Assembly: GCF_007752535.1 (NCBI RefSeq)
Contig: NZ_CP036426.1
Span: forward strand, 1,426,001-1,490,000
Length of the DNA stretch: 64,000 nt
DNA from: Tautonia plasticadhaerens
GTDB lineage: Bacteria; Planctomycetota; Planctomycetia; Isosphaerales; Isosphaeraceae
Reading direction: 5' to 3'
The first letter of the stretch is position 1. The number at the start of each line of letters is the position of its first letter. The notes beneath the pieces were generated by a model, which saw only the letters and a list, made by a program, of their open reading frames with translations, searched no databases and had not been told where the DNA came from. The position numbers and the translations under genes are program-made. Of the stretch, positions 39,145 through 63,925 are shown in pieces.

Positions 39145-40404
39145 TCACCGGCGGGGCCGACGGTCCTTGAACAGGTGCCTGGCCCGGTCGACGGCGTCGG
39201 CCAGGCGGTCGACGTCCTCGGTCGTGTTGTAGAGGTAGGCGCTGGCCCGCCCCGAGGCGGCCAGCCCCAATTTCTGGTGGAGCGGCATCGCGCAATGCTG
39301 CCCGGCCCGGATCGCCACCCCCTCGCGGTCCAGCAGCTGGGCCAGGTCGTGCGGGTGGACCCCCTCCACGTCCATCCCCACGATCCCCCCCTTGTGCTCG
39401 GGGCTCGGGCCGAGGATCCGGACGCCCTCGATCGCCGAGAGCCGCCGGTGGGCGTGCTCCATCAGGCCCCGCTCATGGGCGGCGACCGCCCCCGAGTCGA
39501 GCTTCGAGAGGTAATCGACCGCCGCCCCCAGCCCGATCGCCTGGGCGATCGGCGGCGTCCCCGGCTCGAACTTGTAGGGCAGGTCGTTCCACTCCGAGCT
39601 TTCCCGGGTGACCCGCATCACCATGCTGCCGCCCCCCCAGGCCGGGGGCATCGCCTCCAGGTGCTCCCGCTTGCCGTAGAGCACGCCCACGCCGGTCGGC
39701 CCGCACATCTTGTGGCCGGAGAAGGCGAGGAAGTCGGCCCCGATCGCCGACACGTCGATCGCCCGGTGCGGCACCCCCTGGGCGCCGTCCACCACCACGA
39801 TCGCCCCCCGTTCGTGGGCCATCGCCACGATCGGCTCCAGGGGGACCACAGTCCCCAGCACGTTCGACATCGCCGAGATCGCCACCACCCGGGTCCGGTC
39901 AGTCATCACCCGCTCGACCGCTTCGGGCTCCAGCCTCCCGTCCTCGGTGATCTCGGCGAACCGGAGGGTCAGGCCCCGCTCCTTCGCCAGCATCTGCCAG
40001 GGGACGAGGTTCGCGTGGTGTTCCAGGTCGCTCAGGACGACCTCGTCCCCCTCCTTGAGGAACGCCCGCCCCCAGGACTGGGCCACCAGGTTGATCGACT
40101 CGGTCGTCCCCCGGGTCCAGATCACCTGTTCCGGGTCCTCGGCGCCGATGAACCGGGCCACCTTGGCCCGGGCCAGCTCGTAGGCCTCGGTGGCCCGCTC
40201 GCTCAGGGCGTGGATCCCCCGGTGGACGTTGGCCGGGTACTCCGCGTCGAACGCCTGGACGGCCCGGATCACGGGCCAGGGCTTGAGGGTCGTCGCCGCG
40301 TTGTCCAGGTACGTCAGCCGGACCCCGGGACGGATCTCCTGGTCCAGCGCGGGGAAGTCGGCGCGGAGCAAATCGAGCGGGGTGGTGCGTTCGGCGGTCG
40401 CCAT
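39145..40404 (-). CDS. sufS: Cysteine desulfurase SufS
   Basis: 419 residues of the class-V aminotransferase fold. YLDNAATTLKPWPVI and NVHRGIHALSERAT are the N-terminal signatures; FLAFSGHKMCGPTGVGVLYG contains the PLP Lys; IRAGQHCAMPLHQKLG holds the mobile catalytic Cys. The group II (SufS) form is indicated by the short RAGQHC loop. It takes sulfur from cysteine for Fe-S cluster assembly and passes it to the downstream SufU. It is the first gene of the pair. Confidence 0.94.
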   Translation of the reverse strand: MATAERTTPLDLLRADFPALDQEIRPGVRLTYLDNAATTLKPWPVIRAVQAFDAEYPANVHRGIHALSERATEAYELARAKVARFIGAEDPEQVIWTRGTTESINLVAQSWGRAFLKEGDEVVLSDLEHHANLVPWQMLAKERGLTLRFAEITEDGRLEPEAVERVMTDRTRVVAISAMSNVLGTVVPLEPIVAMAHERGAIVVVDGAQGVPHRAIDVSAIGADFLAFSGHKMCGPTGVGVLYGKREHLEAMPPAWGGGSMVMRVTRESSEWNDLPYKFEPGTPPIAQAIGLGAAVDYLSKLDSGAVAAHERGLMEHAHRRLSAIEGVRILGPSPEHKGGIVGMDVEGVHPHDLAQLLDREGVAIRAGQHCAMPLHQKLGLAASGRASAYLYNTTEDVDRLADAVDRARHLFKDRRPRR

Positions 40405-40930
40405 CGTCCTCGGGTGGGCTGGGAGCTTCGGTGGCCTTCGGGCGTCACCCCATCATACGAGATCGGGGCCCGATCTGCTCGATCCTTTGGCCCCGGTCGG
40501 CGCGATCGGCCGGCATCGCTCGGGCCCAACCGGCCCCGCCCCGGGCGGCGTCCGGATTCTGTGACTGGGATCCGCGATTTCCTCGATCATATGGGAGTGG
40601 CCCCTTCGAATGACCCCGGACGCCCGCCCCGGGTGGGAGGAATGATGATGCCCGAACTTCGGCCCTTCGACCGCCCCAGCCCCCCCTCCCGGGCGGGTGG
40701 GGTGTGTCCCCAGGACCAGCCCGGGGCCTCCCCCCTCGACCCGGCCTCGGCCCGCCCCGGTCGACCCCGGCGGGACGCCGTCCCGAGGCCGGTGGGGTCC
40801 CCATCGGGATCGCGGGTCCCCGGCGCCGAACGAAGCCACCTGCCATCCTGGCAGTCGGGTCGGGATCTCCCCCGCGCCCGTCGTCCCCGGTTCGAGGCCC
40901 TCGCCGAGGCCTCAATCCTTCCGTGCGCAC

Positions 40931-40952
40931 CGACGGAGCGAACCCATTTTGG
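40931..40952 (+). repeat. Direct repeat, copy 1 of 2
   Basis: A 22-bp sequence whose core is GAGCGAACCCATTTTGG is repeated exactly at 41135-41156, 204 bases further on. Both copies have the same orientation and are followed by less GC-rich DNA. It is much too long to be chance repetition at this spacing. Confidence 0.75.
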
Positions 40953-41134
40953 AATCCGGAATGTGTTGCCTTGTCATGGGTTTCGTCGAAACCCGGGTGC
41001 TCCCGGTCGGCGCACCGACCGCTTACCCGCCGCGTCCCGGCCGGCCCTTTCGCGGCCGACGATCCCGACCCCAATGGCCGTCCGAGCCCCGGCCGAGTCG
41101 CCGGTCCTCCGCCCGGCTGGTGCTGGTGCGCTCG

Positions 41135-41156
41135 CGACGGAGCGAACCCATTTTGG
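41135..41156 (+). repeat. Direct repeat, copy 2 of 2
   Basis: Exact copy of the 22-bp unit at 40931-40952. It is followed by an AT-rich run (41160-41205) that is out of character with the surrounding DNA. Confidence 0.75.
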
Positions 41157-41301
41157 GCGACGATGCAATTTATAACTCATTATTTTCATTTTGGTTATGA
41201 TGATCGACCCGTTCACGATCTCGGCGCACCGGCCCCCGCGCCGCCCCGGTCCCGGGCTGGTCCCGGTGAGGGATGCCGGGGGAGCCGACCCCGCGATCCG
41301 G

Positions 41302-41354: not shown

Positions 41355-42017
41355 ATGCCCGAATCCCCCCGCACCCCGCCGATCGCCGACCCGCCGATCC
41401 GACTGGCCGTCCTGGCGTCAGGGGGGGGCACCACGCTCCAGAACCTGATCGACCGGATCGGCGACGGCCGGCTCGTCGCCTCGATCGCCCGGGTGGTCGT
41501 CAGCAAGCCGGGGGTCGCCGCGATCGAGCGGGCGGAGCGGGCCGGCATCCCGGTCGGGGTCGTCCGGAAGGCGGGGCTCGCTCCCGAGGCGTACGAGGCG
41601 GCCGTCTTCGACCCGATCCGCCAGGCCGGGGCCGACCTCGTCGTCCTCGCCGGCTTCCTCAGCCTGCTGCCGATCCCGGAGGACTATCTCGGGAAGATCA
41701 TCAACGTCCACCCGTCCCTCCTCCCCAGCTTCGGCGGCCGGGGCTTCCACGGCGAGGCGGTCCACCGCGCGGCCCTCGAAGTGGGAGTGAAGGTCTCCGG
41801 CTGCACCGTCCACTTCGTCGACGAGCGGTACGACAATGGCCCGATCATCCTCCAGCGCACCGTCCCGGTGCTCGACGACGACACCGAGGCGACCCTCGCC
41901 TCCCGGGTCCAGGCCGCCGAGCGGTCGGCGCTGCCCGAGGCGATCGCCCTGTACGCCGACGGCCGACTGCTGGTCGAGGGCCGCCGGGTCCGGGTGCTCG
42001 ACCCGTATCGGGAGTGA
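41355..42017 (+). CDS. purN: Phosphoribosylglycinamide formyltransferase (GART)
   Basis: 220 residues. LAVLASGGGTTLQNLID is the N-terminal GxGSN-like phosphate loop, here GGGTTLQ. DLVVLAGFLSLLP and INVHPSLLPSFGG (with catalytic Asn and His) and GCTVHFVDERYDNGPII (with catalytic Asp) define 10-formyl-THF-dependent GARTs. It performs the third step of purine synthesis. It is about 20 residues longer at the C-terminus than E. coli PurN, ending GRRVRVLDPYRE. It is followed by infC, which has its own promoter. Confidence 0.93.
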   Translation: MPESPRTPPIADPPIRLAVLASGGGTTLQNLIDRIGDGRLVASIARVVVSKPGVAAIERAERAGIPVGVVRKAGLAPEAYEAAVFDPIRQAGADLVVLAGFLSLLPIPEDYLGKIINVHPSLLPSFGGRGFHGEAVHRAALEVGVKVSGCTVHFVDERYDNGPIILQRTVPVLDDDTEATLASRVQAAERSALPEAIALYADGRLLVEGRRVRVLDPYRE

Positions 42018-58134: not shown

Positions 58135-58208
58135 GGTGGCTGTTGCCTAGCGGTTAAGGCGCCAGATTGTGGATCTGGAGATCGCGGGTTCGAATCCCGT
58201 CAGCCACC
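58135..58208 (+). tRNA. tRNA-His (GTG), stand-alone
   Basis: Full cloverleaf. Acceptor GTGGCTG (58136-58142) pairs with CAGCCAC (58201-58207). G at 58135 and C at 58208 form the G-1:C73 pair specific to tRNA-His. Anticodon loop TTGTGGA on a CCAGA/TCTGG stem, U33 normal. T-loop TTCGAAT. CCA is not encoded. This conventional gene contrasts with the second His gene in the array at 62.6 kb. Confidence 0.93.
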
Positions 58209-61555: not shown

Positions 61556-62003
61556 GGCGGCACCTCCTCGCCCGGGGCGTCGGCCCGGGGCTCGTCTAGG
61601 AATTGATCATGATGATGGGTCCATGGGATGCAAGATGCCCTCCGGGATCGGTTGGACGCCGATCAATCGTCGAGGAGCGGGGTCTCGCTTGAGCCGAGGA
61701 GGCCGATCGCCTCGGGGTTCCGGATAGGCGGGATGCCGATCGGCCGGAGCCGACCGACGTCCCCACCTCCCCGGACACCCACCGGCCGTCGGCCCCTTTC
61801 GGCGGAATCCGCGAACCTCAGAGCTCCCGTTCCGTGCTGCCGACATCCGGTCGGGACGCCGTCGGGCGCGGTCCGGTTGCCCGGCCCGACTCCCGGCGGC
61901 GCCCTCCCCGGGCGACGGCCGATCGGATGTCCTCCCGATCCCTTCGGGCCTTGGTCGAAACGCTGGACAGCGTTCCTGTCAGCCGGTTACGAGCCGGCCA
62001 CGG
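61556..62003. other. Gene-free region downstream of the tRNA array
   Basis: About 450 bases between the SPFH gene and the last tRNA. Two hairpins lie near the array end: AACGCT-GGAC-AGCGTT (61959-61974) and GCCGG/CCGGC (61982-61998). Either could terminate the array transcript on the minus strand. No coding frame is convincing. Confidence 0.5.
61959..61998 (-). terminator. Candidate terminators of the tRNA array
   Basis: The hairpin 61982-61998 (5-bp stem) lies 6 bases after the tRNA-Leu end. It is followed, in the array's direction, by the 6-bp stem 61959-61974, which ends in TTT on the minus strand. Confidence 0.45.
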
Positions 62004-62076
62004 TGGTGTGAGCGGGAGTCGAACCCGCAACCCCCAGATCCTCAGTCTGGTGCCCTACCCATTGGGCGATCACACG
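62004..62076 (-). tRNA. tRNA with Leu anticodon (GAG), short variable arm
   Basis: Acceptor CGTGTGA/TCACACC has a C1.C72 mismatch. D-stem GCCC/GGGC, anticodon loop CTGAGGA on CCAGA/TCTGG, variable loop GGGTT (only 5 nt), T-loop TTCGACT, A73. A Leu anticodon on a class I body is atypical, because bacterial tRNA-Leu has a long variable arm. Confidence 0.75.
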
Positions 62077-62214
62077 CCCGATGCCGCCCCGGTTCAGATC
62101 CCATGCACGGGACACACCTCCCCGATCTCCCCGGGGGAGAGGAGGGTGCGCCGCTGGCCTGACGGCATCGGCCGCTTGCTTGAAAGCGATTGGGGATGAT
62201 CATGGATCCCCGAG

Positions 62215-62285
62215 AGACGCCGGTGGGAGTCGAACCCACTTCGACCGGGTTGCAGCCGGTTGCCTGGCCGTCTGGCTCCAGCGTC
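62215..62285 (-). tRNA. tRNA-Cys (GCA)
   Basis: Acceptor GACGCTG/CGGCGTC with a T.G pair, D-stem GCC/GGC, anticodon loop CTGCAAC, T-loop TTCGACT. Discriminator T73 is the classical Cys identity element. Position 8 is G, not U. Confidence 0.85.
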
Positions 62286-62301
62286 GATGGTCCGCGAGGG
62301 A

Positions 62302-62372
62302 TGTCCCCGCCAGGAGTCGAACCTGGCCCTCGACCTTCGCACGGTCGCGTGCCTCCCTCACACTCCGGGGAC
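62302..62372 (-). tRNA. tRNA-Arg (GCG)
   Basis: Acceptor GTCCCCG/CGGGGAC, D-stem GTG/CAC, anticodon loop GTGCGAA on CGACC/GGTCG, T-arm CCAGG/CCTGG, A73. G8 replaces U8. It shares its T-arm and anticodon stem with the neighbouring Arg(CCG) gene. Confidence 0.82.
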
Positions 62373-62390
62373 GGGATGGGTCGACCGCAG

Positions 62391-62462
62391 TGCCCTCGCC
62401 AGGAGTCGAACCTGGCCCTCGACCTTCGGAGGGTCGCGTGCCGTCCGACACACCCCGAGGGC
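62391..62462 (-). tRNA. tRNA-Arg (CCG)
   Basis: Acceptor GCCCTCG/CGAGGGC, D-stem GTG/CAC, anticodon loop CTCCGAA on CGACC/GGTCG, T-arm CCAGG/CCTGG, A73. G8 replaces U8. The anticodon stem, variable loop and T-arm are identical to Arg(GCG). Confidence 0.82.
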
Positions 62463-62483
62463 AACGATCGATCGTCGGATCAG

Positions 62484-62553
62484 CAGGGGCGCAAGGATTC
62501 GAACCCTGTGGACGGGCTTTGGAGGCCCGCTGCTCTCCCAGGAGCACGCCCCT
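62484..62553 (-). tRNA. tRNA-Trp (CCA)
   Basis: Acceptor AGGGGCG/CGCCCCT exactly as in many bacterial tRNA-Trp, anticodon loop CTCCAAA on CGGGC/GCCCG, T-arm CAGGG/CCTTG, G73. Spacing around positions 8-10 is short, with one base apparently missing before the D-stem GCTC. Confidence 0.82.
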
Positions 62554-62575
62554 GTCTGCTGCTTCGATCAGCAAG

Positions 62576-62647
62576 GGTGTCCGACGGGATTCGAACCCGC
62601 CCTTCGAGGCCCACAACCTCGGGTGCTGCCGCTACACCACGGACACC
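62576..62647 (-). tRNA. tRNA-His (GTG), array copy
   Basis: Acceptor GTGTCCG/CGGACAC with an extra G-1 (62647) facing C73 (62576), the tRNA-His hallmark. Anticodon loop TTGTGGG on CGAGG/CCTCG, T-loop TTCGAAT. Its body differs strongly from the stand-alone tRNA-His at 58135. Confidence 0.88.
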
Positions 62648-62672
62648 CTCAACCGTTCGGCCAATCCGACAG

Positions 62673-62755
62673 CGGAAGGGGAGGGATTCGAACCCCCAAG
62701 GCTTGCGCTCGCCCGCCTTCCACGCGGGTCCCGTCGCCGATCGGGTGGCCCTTCC
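62673..62755 (-). tRNA. tRNA-Ser (GGA)
   Basis: Acceptor GGAAGGG/CCCTTCC, anticodon loop GTGGAAG on CCCGC/GCGGG, long variable arm of about 15 nt, T-arm GGGGG/CCCTC, G73. The long arm fits Ser. Positions 8-9 are CC. Confidence 0.85.
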
Positions 62756-62770
62756 ATCGAACTCGGCCAG

Positions 62771-62843
62771 TGGGCGGTGCAGGGATCGAACCTGCGACCT
62801 CCCGCACGTCACGCGGGCGCTCTCCCGGCTGAGCCAACCGCCC
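62771..62843 (-). tRNA. tRNA-Val (GAC)
   Basis: Acceptor GGGCGGT/ACCGCCC, U8, D-stem GCTC/GAGC, anticodon loop GTGACGT on CCCGC/GCGGG, T-arm GCAGG/CCTGC, A73. This is one of the most canonical genes in the array. Confidence 0.9.
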
Positions 62844-62873
62844 TCGGGAACGTCCCCGACCCCTGGGACGCAG

Positions 62874-62961
62874 CGGAAGGGGAGGGATTCGAACCCCCAC
62901 GCCCCTCTCGGGGCTCACTCGTTAGCACCGAGGCCCGGCCAGCCGTATCCGGCTCCCTTCC
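62874..62961 (-). tRNA. tRNA-Ser (GCT)
   Basis: Acceptor GGAAGGG/CCCTTCC, shared with Ser(GGA). Anticodon loop GTGCTAA, long variable arm with GCCCC-GAGA-GGGGC stem, T-arm GGGGG/CCCTC, G73. Position 8 is A. The anticodon stem has a C.T mismatch at its base. Confidence 0.85.
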
Positions 62962-62978
62962 TTCGCACTCACCCGCAG

Positions 62979-63049
62979 TGGACCGCCGGGGAGTCGAACC
63001 CCGATCTCCGGTGTGCAAGGCCGGTGTCTTCCCATTGGACGAGCAGCCC
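62979..63049 (-). tRNA. tRNA-Ala (TGC)
   Basis: Acceptor GGGCTGC/GCGGTCC contains the G3.U70 wobble that specifies alanine. Anticodon loop CTTGCAC on CCGGC/ACCGG with a C.A mismatch at 31-39, T-arm CGGGG/CCCCG, A73, U8 present. Confidence 0.87.
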
Positions 63050-63066
63050 ATCACGATTATCGGACA

Positions 63067-63137
63067 AGGTCCGCCCGGGGCTCGAACCCGGACCACCTCC
63101 CTACCGAGGAGGCATGCCGCCATAACACCTGCGGACC
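63067..63137 (-). tRNA. tRNA-Thr (GGT) with C33
   Basis: Acceptor GGTCCGC/GCGGACC, anticodon loop TCGGTAG on CCTCC/GGAGG, T-arm CCGGG/CCCGG, T73. Position 33 is C and position 8 is A, both departures from near-universal uridines. Confidence 0.78.
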
Positions 63138-63144
63138 AGCAGAG

Positions 63145-63217
63145 TCGTCCCGGCAGGAGTCGAACCTGCGATCACCCGCATGTGAGGCGGGGGCCCTGGC
63201 CGCTGGACGACGGGACG
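63145..63217 (-). tRNA. tRNA-Val (CAC)
   Basis: Acceptor CGTCCCG/CGGGACG (unusual C1-G72), D-stem GTCC/GGGC, anticodon loop CTCACAT on CCCGC/GCGGG, T-arm GCAGG/CCTGC, A73, U8 and U33 present. Confidence 0.85.
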
Positions 63218-63303
63218 AAGCGGAGTCGAGCAGTCGGTCGACGAGGGAGGACTCGACGCTGCAATGCACCCGAGCCCCGGCCGGGTCTCGGTCCACCCGA
63301 GAA
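63218..63303. other. Spacer inside the tRNA array with strong hairpin
   Basis: The only sizeable gap within the dense part of the array (86 bases). It contains the near-palindrome CCGAGCCCCGG/CCGGGTCTCGG (about 63270-63291). No T-arm could be found, so either it is a decayed tRNA or an internal terminator/processing site. Confidence 0.4.
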
Positions 63304-63373
63304 TCCCAGGCCCCGGTAACGATCCGGGCACGCCGGGCTTATGAGACCCGGCCGGGCACCTGCCACGCCTGGT
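63304..63373 (-). tRNA. tRNA-Met-like gene (CAT), atypical
   Basis: Acceptor ACCAGGC/GCCTGGG with A1.G72 mismatch. Anticodon loop CTCATAA on CGGGT/GCCCG. The T-loop reads ATCGTTA instead of TTCxANT, and the D-arm is shortened by about three bases. It could be a diverged elongator or initiator Met, an Ile(CAU) gene, or a pseudogene. Confidence 0.6.
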
Positions 63374-63393
63374 AAGGATCTCCGATCGAGGAG

Positions 63394-63465
63394 TCGCCCG
63401 TGCGGGACTCGAACCCGCCTCTCCCGGTCGAGGGCCGGGTGTCCTGGCCGATGGACGAACGAGCG
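63394..63465 (-). tRNA. tRNA-Glu (CTC) with C33
   Basis: Acceptor CGCTCGT/ACGGGCG, D-arm TCGTCC...GGAC typical of Glu, anticodon loop CCCTCGA on CCCGG/CCGGG, T-arm GCGGG/CCCGC, A73. C33 replaces U33 (complement of 63433). Confidence 0.8.
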
Positions 63466-63475
63466 ATCTGCGAGG

Positions 63476-63558
63476 TGCGCCGGGACGGAATCGAACCGCC
63501 AACGCCCGGGGGCGGGGCGGGTTACGGCCACCGGGGCTCTCCGGTGCCCGGCCGACGC
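63476..63558 (-). tRNA. tRNA-Tyr (GTA) with C33 and long variable arm
   Basis: Acceptor GCGTCGG/CCGGCGC, D-stem GGGC/GCCC, anticodon loop CCGTAAC on GGTGG/CCGCC, long variable arm as in bacterial tRNA-Tyr, T-arm GGCGG/CCGTC, A73. C33 replaces U33, and position 8 is C. Confidence 0.8.
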
Positions 63559-63579
63559 ATCAGACGAATCCGGAACAAG

Positions 63580-63654
63580 CGCCCCCGATGGGATTCGAAC
63601 CCATGACCTCCACCGTGACGGGGTGGCGAGCACTCCAGGCTGCTCCACGAAGGC
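63580..63654 (-). tRNA. tRNA-Asp (GTC) with C33
   Basis: Acceptor GCCTTCG/CGGGGGC with two T.G pairs, D-stem GAGC/GCTC, anticodon loop CCGTCAC on CCACC/GGTGG, T-arm ATGGG/CCCAT, G73 as in tRNA-Asp. C33 replaces U33 (complement of 63620). Confidence 0.83.
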
Positions 63655-63669
63655 GTGTCGGAAACCGAG

Positions 63670-63743
63670 TGGCCCGAGAGGGATTCGAACCCCCACTCTC
63701 CCGCGTCTGAGGCGGGTGTCGTTGCCAGTTCGCCTACCGGGCC
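63670..63743 (-). tRNA. tRNA with Leu anticodon (CAG), short variable arm
   Basis: Acceptor GGCCCGG/TCGGGCC, Leu-like D-arm, anticodon loop CTCAGAC on CCCGC/GCGGG, T-arm GGGGG/CCCTC, A73. The variable loop AGAGT is only 5 nt, unlike normal bacterial tRNA-Leu. Confidence 0.78.
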
Positions 63744-63780
63744 TGCGGTTGATTGCAGCGTCCCCGTTCATTCCTCGAAG

Positions 63781-63852
63781 ATCGGGGAGGAGGGCTCGAA
63801 CCTCCACGACCGGCCTCAGAAGCCGGAGGCCTACCGATTCGCCGATCCCCGA
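63781..63852 (-). tRNA. tRNA-Gln (CTG)
   Basis: Acceptor TCGGGGA/TCCCCGA with the T1-A72 pair expected for Gln, D-stem GGC/GCC, anticodon loop TTCTGAG on CCGGC/GCCGG, T-arm GGAGG/CCTCC, T73. It ends one base before the Gly gene. Confidence 0.85.
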
Positions 63853-63853
63853 G

Positions 63854-63925
63854 CGTGCCCCGCGGGAGTCAAACCCGCCTGTCCGGCGTGGGGGGCCGGT
63901 GCCTGTGCCGATCGGCCAGGGACAC
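63854..63925 (-). tRNA. tRNA-Gly (CCC) with C33 and U56
   Basis: Acceptor GTGTCCC/GGGGCAC, D-stem GCC/GGC, anticodon loop CCCCCAC on CCGGC/GCCGG, T-loop TTTGACT where C56 is replaced by U. C33 replaces U33. N73 is G, not the usual U. This is one of the most divergent genes of the array. Confidence 0.72.

Follow-up and report, generated by a model that had tools for sequence, protein, structure and literature searches.

The two 22-bp direct repeats in the gap between sufS and purN of Tautonia plasticadhaerens probably mark units in a family of multipartite, putative protein-binding DNA elements that are set in cooperative arrays. Copies of the repeat core occur throughout the genome, the sites within a unit lie close to whole helical turns apart, and the same element sits at the 3′ ends of genes from one protein family.

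The repeat locus and its genome-wide family

The initial annotation of the window (the whole 64,000-nucleotide stretch of DNA analyzed here) had noticed two exact copies of the repeat in the same orientation, an AT-rich run behind the second copy and a gene-free setting, all of which we confirmed. The copies are 204 bp apart, start to start, and a search with the inner 17-mer of the repeat at up to three mismatches returned two matches in the window, one at each copy, against 0.09 expected. The window's top 30-, 40- and 60-base AT stretches all fall inside 41145-41206; the AT content of the richest 30-mer is 83%, compared with 73% for the best elsewhere in the window. A codon-usage caller placed no genes in the 950 bp that separate sufS from purN. 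The 22-mer is the core of two elements of about 100 bp (Table 1); the initial annotation had missed the outer GGTGCGC and GGCGCACC sites, as well as the phasing and the connection with a protein family.

Table 1. Features at the repeat locus, in positions of the window
Feature	Position	Strand	Remarks
Possible satellite element	40827-40854	+	CGAACGAAGCCACCTGCC-ATCC-TGGCAG: variant core, then small inverted repeat
Element 1	40923-41016	+	Left to right outer site; length class 74
Left outer site of element 1	40923-40930	+	GTGCGCAC, variant of GGTGCGCC
First 22-bp copy	40931-40952	+	Contains the genome-wide core RCGGAGCGAACCCATTT; 15-mer at 40935-40949
Right outer site of element 1	41009-41016	+	GGCGCACC, 74 bp past the 15-mer start
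Element 2	41125-41230	+	Left to right outer site; length class 84
Left outer site of element 2	41125-41131	+	GGTGCGC
Second 22-bp copy	41135-41156	+	15-mer at 41139-41153
Most AT-rich 30 bases of the window	41169-41198	.	In element 2, core to right site
Right outer site of element 2	41223-41230	+	GGCGCACC, 84 bp past the 15-mer start
sufS	39145-40404	-	Named by NCBIfam
purN	41355-42017	+	Named by NCBIfam

In an Rfam scan of the window only tRNAs reached the gathering threshold, none of them at the repeat locus, and ARAGORN likewise found no tRNA there. Elsewhere in the window, ARAGORN placed 19 tRNA genes packed together on the minus strand at 62002-63925, 10 of which reach the Rfam tRNA threshold, with a His tRNA additionally at 58136; on this basis the cluster may be a mobile-type tRNA array. 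A search for plasmid relatives of the locus gave only short, weak matches (10 records, none at 80% coverage).

The suggestion that the repeat belongs to an intergenic family was borne out by a search of the whole genome (9,395,224 bases). At up to one mismatch, the 15-bp core was found at 124 places (60 on the plus strand and 64 on the minus strand), with none for the reversed control, and GGAGCGAACCCATTT was found at 63 exact places. We clustered the 98 listed core places on contig C1 (100 of the 124 were listed) into 58 loci of 7 kb each, and analyzed 105 of the 124 copies, the other 19 being 2 exact copies on contig C2 and 17 one-mismatch copies. Forty-eight of the fetched loci are intergenic, holding one, two, three or four copies in 16, 18, 13 and 1 cases, respectively, and 10 are gene-borne, at the 3′ ends of paralogous genes. 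Copies of mixed orientation were found in none of the 58 loci. The intergenic arrays are spread over four kinds of gene gap (8, 15, 11 and 14 of 48), and their flanking genes have no preferred orientation.

As a control we used 20 stretches of 20 kb placed away from the listed loci, 8 of them within 4.0-6.0 Mb. The array loci (406 kb) contained 195 occurrences of GGCGCACC compared with 32 in the control stretches (400 kb), and 73 of CGAACCCATTT compared with 0, the zero being due in part to how the stretches were chosen. In one control stretch (L231) we saw a pair of variant copies (GGAGCGAACCCAATC) spaced by 217 bp, indicating that arrays are more numerous than counted. Satellite-like elements were also seen in three further array loci (L052, L058 and L072), and the small inverted repeat of the satellite, taken alone, was unenriched, with 5 in array loci and 4 in control stretches. 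Along the 8.67-Mb chromosome (G000:C1, where G000 is the window's genome), the exact core is absent over 1.69 Mb, from 4.66 to 6.35 Mb, and the simulated chance of a gap as large is 0.011 (38 clusters).

A scan across genome contigs with the 15-mer returned at least 120 stretches. Among the 80 matches listed, which came from many phyla and included one Planctomycetaceae MAG, each held a single copy, a pattern as by chance. Our literature search found no description of the repeat, which is not proof of its absence from all print, and the word "repeat" does not occur in those parts of the type-strain paper (PMC7716859) that the search covered.

Unit anatomy and helical spacing

The order of a unit is GGTGCGC(C), RCGGAGCGAACCCATTT, an AT-richer middle and GGCGCACC. 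The core RCGGAGCGAACCCATTT is near invariant among copies that were selected at no more than one mismatch in the 15-mer. GGTGCGC(C) typically lies 12-13 bp upstream of the core, and the full GGTGCGC is present in 48 of 103 units. Downstream of the core, a stretch richer in AT, in which CGCAA and TTGCG are often present, leads to GGCGCACC or a close variant of it, which is present in 103 of the 105 copies and missing from two. Measured from the start of the 15-mer, the right site lies at a distance of 62-64 bp (31 units), 73-75 bp (31), 84 bp (11), 86 bp (12), 96 bp (3) or 108 bp (13); one unit each falls at 54 and at 77 bp. The inner sequences of units of the same class are, by eye, unlike one another beyond the sites, which suggests that unit length is kept while sequence drifts.

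The distance from core to right site is quantized. Scanning periods from 8 to 16 bp, we obtained an R of 0.914 for all units (n = 103), 0.905 for the 93 intergenic units and 0.888 for one unit per intergenic locus (n = 48), the last set being tested because copies within one locus are mostly of one class. In each set the best period was 11.2-11.35 bp (~11.3 bp), as is found in a helically phased multi-site element with its sites whole turns apart, and none of 500 uniform nulls reached the observed R; the length classes had been noticed before the test. R was 0.74-0.81 at 10.5 bp compared with 0.88-0.91 at 11-11.5 bp. Copy-to-copy spacing (n = 45) gave a period of 11.1 bp with an R of 0.48, which none of 500 nulls reached by what is a small margin (largest null 0.445), and the distance from right site to next core (n = 42) gave a period of 10.95 bp with an R of 0.60, again reached by none of 500 nulls.

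Free DNA has ~10.5 bp per turn. For the helical repeat in vivo, fits to E. coli looping data gave 11.60 and 11.08 bp/turn (PMC1762422). The ~11.3-bp quantization is close to such in vivo turns, and so points away from an RNA and toward putative proteins that share one face of a DNA duplex. The spacing rule seems to preserve, within a genome, the helical repeat as it is in vivo. The occurrence of classes 84 and 86 without 85, and of class 108 without 107 or 109, is sharper than helical phasing requires, and the length classes may be partly inherited, reflecting descent rather than phasing.

STGP genes and species dialects

The 10 gene-borne copies belong to a single protein family, for which we use the name STGP, from the STGPRT motif at its N terminus. 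The genome has 28 STGP matches, of which 12, counting the query, have at least 55% identity, and we examined 26 of the 28 for a core near the stop codon, leaving out L123 and L124. All 12 close paralogues carry CGAASCCA near the stop and GCGCACC exactly 105 bp further on, with one more GCGCACC in L107, at 95 bp. The element is in one reading frame in ten of these genes and in another in two, and in L108 the stop codon lies within the element, with 35 bp from core to stop and 70 bp from stop to right site, so that the distance is still 105 bp. That this distance is kept across frames and across the L108 stop reflects a constraint on the DNA and not on the protein tail. A protein-level reading of the gene-borne copy, as a conserved "RSEPIS" tail, was rejected on the same grounds.

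Class 108, which corresponds to the 105-bp distance counted from the 15-mer, comprises 10 of 10 gene-borne units compared with 3 of 93 intergenic units. In the 14 remote paralogues (L109-L122) the gene itself is free of the core; GCGCACC alone is present in L109-L114 and L121, and in L122 the core lies 191 bp past the stop. A near-identical block, AAAAAGTGACTG...GGGGCCCGATTTCCTGATCTTAAGGGTGTA, was observed upstream of 10 of the 12 close STGP genes (for example at about 1360-1420 of L097), with a related block before the remote paralogues L120 and L121. This upstream block is possibly a shared promoter.

We then have a count from eight other genomes, where 30 STGP loci out of a larger number of matches, less 8 without a readable N-terminal motif and 3 that run off contig ends, gave 19 readable genes. 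In 15 of the 19, the last 600 nt ahead of the stop contain CGAASCCA on the coding strand, compared with about 0.5 expected from the rate of CGAASCCA in control stretches, and 13 of the 15 have longer forms that resemble the repeat core. The remaining 4 of 19 have no core before the stop, and the genes in this count span genera g1, g2, g11 and g18. In G014, a genome of another genus, an STGP gene (L143/L254) has four tandem 48-bp copies of the core word in open frame. The draft assemblies G040 and G042 break at several STGP copies (L180-L182 and L213-L224), and most G042 copies are 82-96% alike, which suggests that duplication or gene conversion has taken place recently in this species. Outside the taxonomic family, a search of 78 sampled genomes from the phylum with the STGP protein model gave matches in two, each over a short stretch (E values of 2.8e-17 and 5.1e-5), in a first look that scored at most 21 candidates per genome.

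The STGP protein is predicted to be long-helical and coiled-coil-like. Its AlphaFold model (pLDDT 85.1) consists mostly of long helices with a small C-terminal hairpin, and a fold search returned no PDB or BFVD match at E ≤ 0.001. No domain was found above cut-off with Pfam and NCBIfam (three proteins) or with PHROGs and PADLOC (two proteins), the better of two sub-threshold Pfam matches scoring 18.2 against 25 bits.

Absence of the repeat from both the rest of the genome and its relatives was part of the outcome that the initial annotation had set against its own proposal, and the repeat is present in both. The exact 15-mer occurs in 4 of 45 genomes of the taxonomic family. All four belong to the window's genus, and the three other than G000 have between 2 and 7 copies each. 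Exact cores outside STGP genes occur at five loci in G041, and four of these have flanking genes in common with G000 arrays (L048, L052, L069 and L088), and a gene-borne copy of G040 shares flanking genes with the G000 locus L061. Upstream of purN, there are four variant cores in G040 and three in G041, and no core was found there in G042. The flanking genes shared within the genus suggest that several array places are old and inherited, while the word drifts.

Judged from sequence, the core CGAASCCA has different dialects in other genera. The variant GAACGAAGCCAATTT has 31, 27 and 11 copies in three of six g18 genomes, 1-3 copies in four genomes of other genera and 0 in the window's genus. 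The shorter ACGAASCCAATT was above its reversed control in three g18 genomes and in one each of g6, g2, g13 and g16 (36 searched). In G032, 19 of 36 successive variant copies are spaced 89-91 bp apart, which would equal 8 turns of 11.25 bp each. For G014, we predicted that the word carried by its STGP gene, GGAACGAACCCAGC, would be found dispersed in the genome; it has nine matches there, four within the gene and five elsewhere, compared with one match across eight other genomes and two reversed-control matches. Upstream of the five dispersed places no STGP homology was found, over 3.9-4.9 kb for three of them and over only 1.1 and 0.7 kb for two. The same dispersal test gave no support in G002, where the word occurs four times, twice in the source genes; the other two places have like flanks, with 0.5-0.6 kb of DNA upstream.

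Competing readings and a putative nucleoprotein array

A non-coding RNA or other RNA-level element transcribed from the array, such as a structured RNA, an attenuator or a terminator, had been among the initial proposals and is in our estimation very improbable. The outer arms are able to pair, and z is below -2 on the element strand in 28 of 103 units; however, the opposite strand reaches this value in 24 of 103, and the mean z is -1.10 compared with -0.95 (n = 103, 25 shuffles each), so that folding is weak and similar on both strands. The left arm, full in fewer than half of the units, varies while the right arm is near constant, unlike compensating stems, and the lack of a preferred orientation in flanking genes is unlike terminators. 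In addition, the locus has no Rfam match and the spacings fit the DNA helix. The initial proposal of a regulator-binding array has fared better, as helical phasing makes it the best supported kind of mechanism, with gene regulation itself putative. Helical phasing is typical of cooperative regulators, and ordinary transcription-factor sites that control neighboring genes as a regulon would fit both the phasing and the 29 of 48 intergenic loci with a gene reading away on the 3′ side, purN included. We consider a regulon improbable nonetheless, because a gene orientation preference is not clear, the same element lies within the 3′ ends of STGP genes, and the few neighbors identified have no evident common theme; these are purN and, from their sequence, genes that we take to encode peptide deformylase, MutL and a histidine kinase, most array-neighbor names being putative. 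The loop operators of LacI and AraC and the sites of nucleoid-associated proteins also lie whole turns apart, with an in vivo period of ~11 bp, whereas the element described here is genome-wide, has several site types per unit, occurs in all kinds of gene gap and inside the 3′ end of a gene family, and has a binder that is putative. DNA uptake sequences and genus-specific signal words resemble it as short dispersed words with dialects among related species, and differ in that the present element has far fewer copies and is multipartite, arrayed and phased. Integron attC arrays are similar in their position at gene 3′ ends, variable length and inverted sites; the element described here differs in that its copies are dispersed around the chromosome, for the most part with no genes between them, at a spacing of ~200 bp.

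It is also unlikely, to a lesser degree, that the units are a non-autonomous mobile element of REPIN- or MITE-like type, in which the outer inverted repeats would be the ends and the arrays would be landed or decayed copies, with the autonomous or helper role falling to an STGP gene together with the copy at its 3′ end. Such an element would account for the inverted outer sites, the size of ~100 bp and the dispersal in intergenic DNA, for the multiple STGP genes, for the closeness of most G042 copies, several of which are at contig ends, and for dialects that differ from species to species. Against it, the units have short sites in common and not inner sequence (by eye), no transposase domain was found in the scanned STGP proteins, and mobility does not need helical phasing. 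The flanking genes common to G000 loci, at four of five exact-core non-gene loci in G041 and one gene-borne copy in G040, also speak against it. REP/REPIN-RAYT systems, in which a Y1 (HUH) transposase gene is flanked by the repeat itself, are alike in being dispersed, intergenic, clustered and ~100 bp long with inverted outer sites, in differing between species and in their link with a repeat-carrying gene family; they are unlike in that no Y1 domain was found in the scanned STGP proteins and the units here are phased and share sites rather than inner sequence. This identification was rejected because the repeat on either side of the only Y1_Tnp gene in the genome is a different one. CGAASCCA, GGCGCACC and GAGCGAAC are all absent from the 3.2-kb locus of that gene (L179, G000:C1:7963603), which holds the sole RAYT-like match together with its own GGGACAACGTGTTGTCCC-type palindromic repeat and is apparently a separate REP system. 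As defined in PMC3733652, REP/REPIN sequences are palindromes of 20-40 bp that bear a GTAG or CGTC tag, and by eye neither tag is present in the element consensus.

Under the reading that we favor, a phased array of putative protein-binding units, each unit would offer separate sites, namely GGTGCGCC on the left, RCGGAGCGAACCCATTTC in the center, often CGCAA and TTGCG, and GGCGCACC on the right. With sites about whole helical turns apart, bound proteins would lie on one face of the DNA and could touch, or bend or loop the ~100 bp of a unit. Adjacent units are head to tail at a spacing that is also near whole turns, and could thus build a cooperative nucleoprotein array, in which the several kinds of site would correspond to several proteins or domains on one DNA face. 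The role may be in chromosome architecture or in local regulation.

The STGP protein is a tentative candidate for the binder, put forward because its gene carries the element and its predicted shape is helical; with neither a fold nor a domain match, DNA binding by STGP is a guess. We can also imagine, with considerable doubt, an undescribed chromosome-organizing system of the Isosphaeraceae, in which the multi-copy coiled-coil STGP would bind the phased arrays, spaced at ~200 bp, and bridge or wrap DNA. Protein and word would then change together to give species dialects, each close STGP gene having its own full-length target at the 3′ end.

In our judgment, little is understood of planctomycete chromosomes, and an anatomy this readable is rare among bacterial repeat families. 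A concrete candidate for testing comes from the pairing of a DNA word with gene 3′ ends in one unnamed protein family. If confirmed, the element would add a new class to the dispersed DNA signals of bacteria, one that has dialects from species to species.
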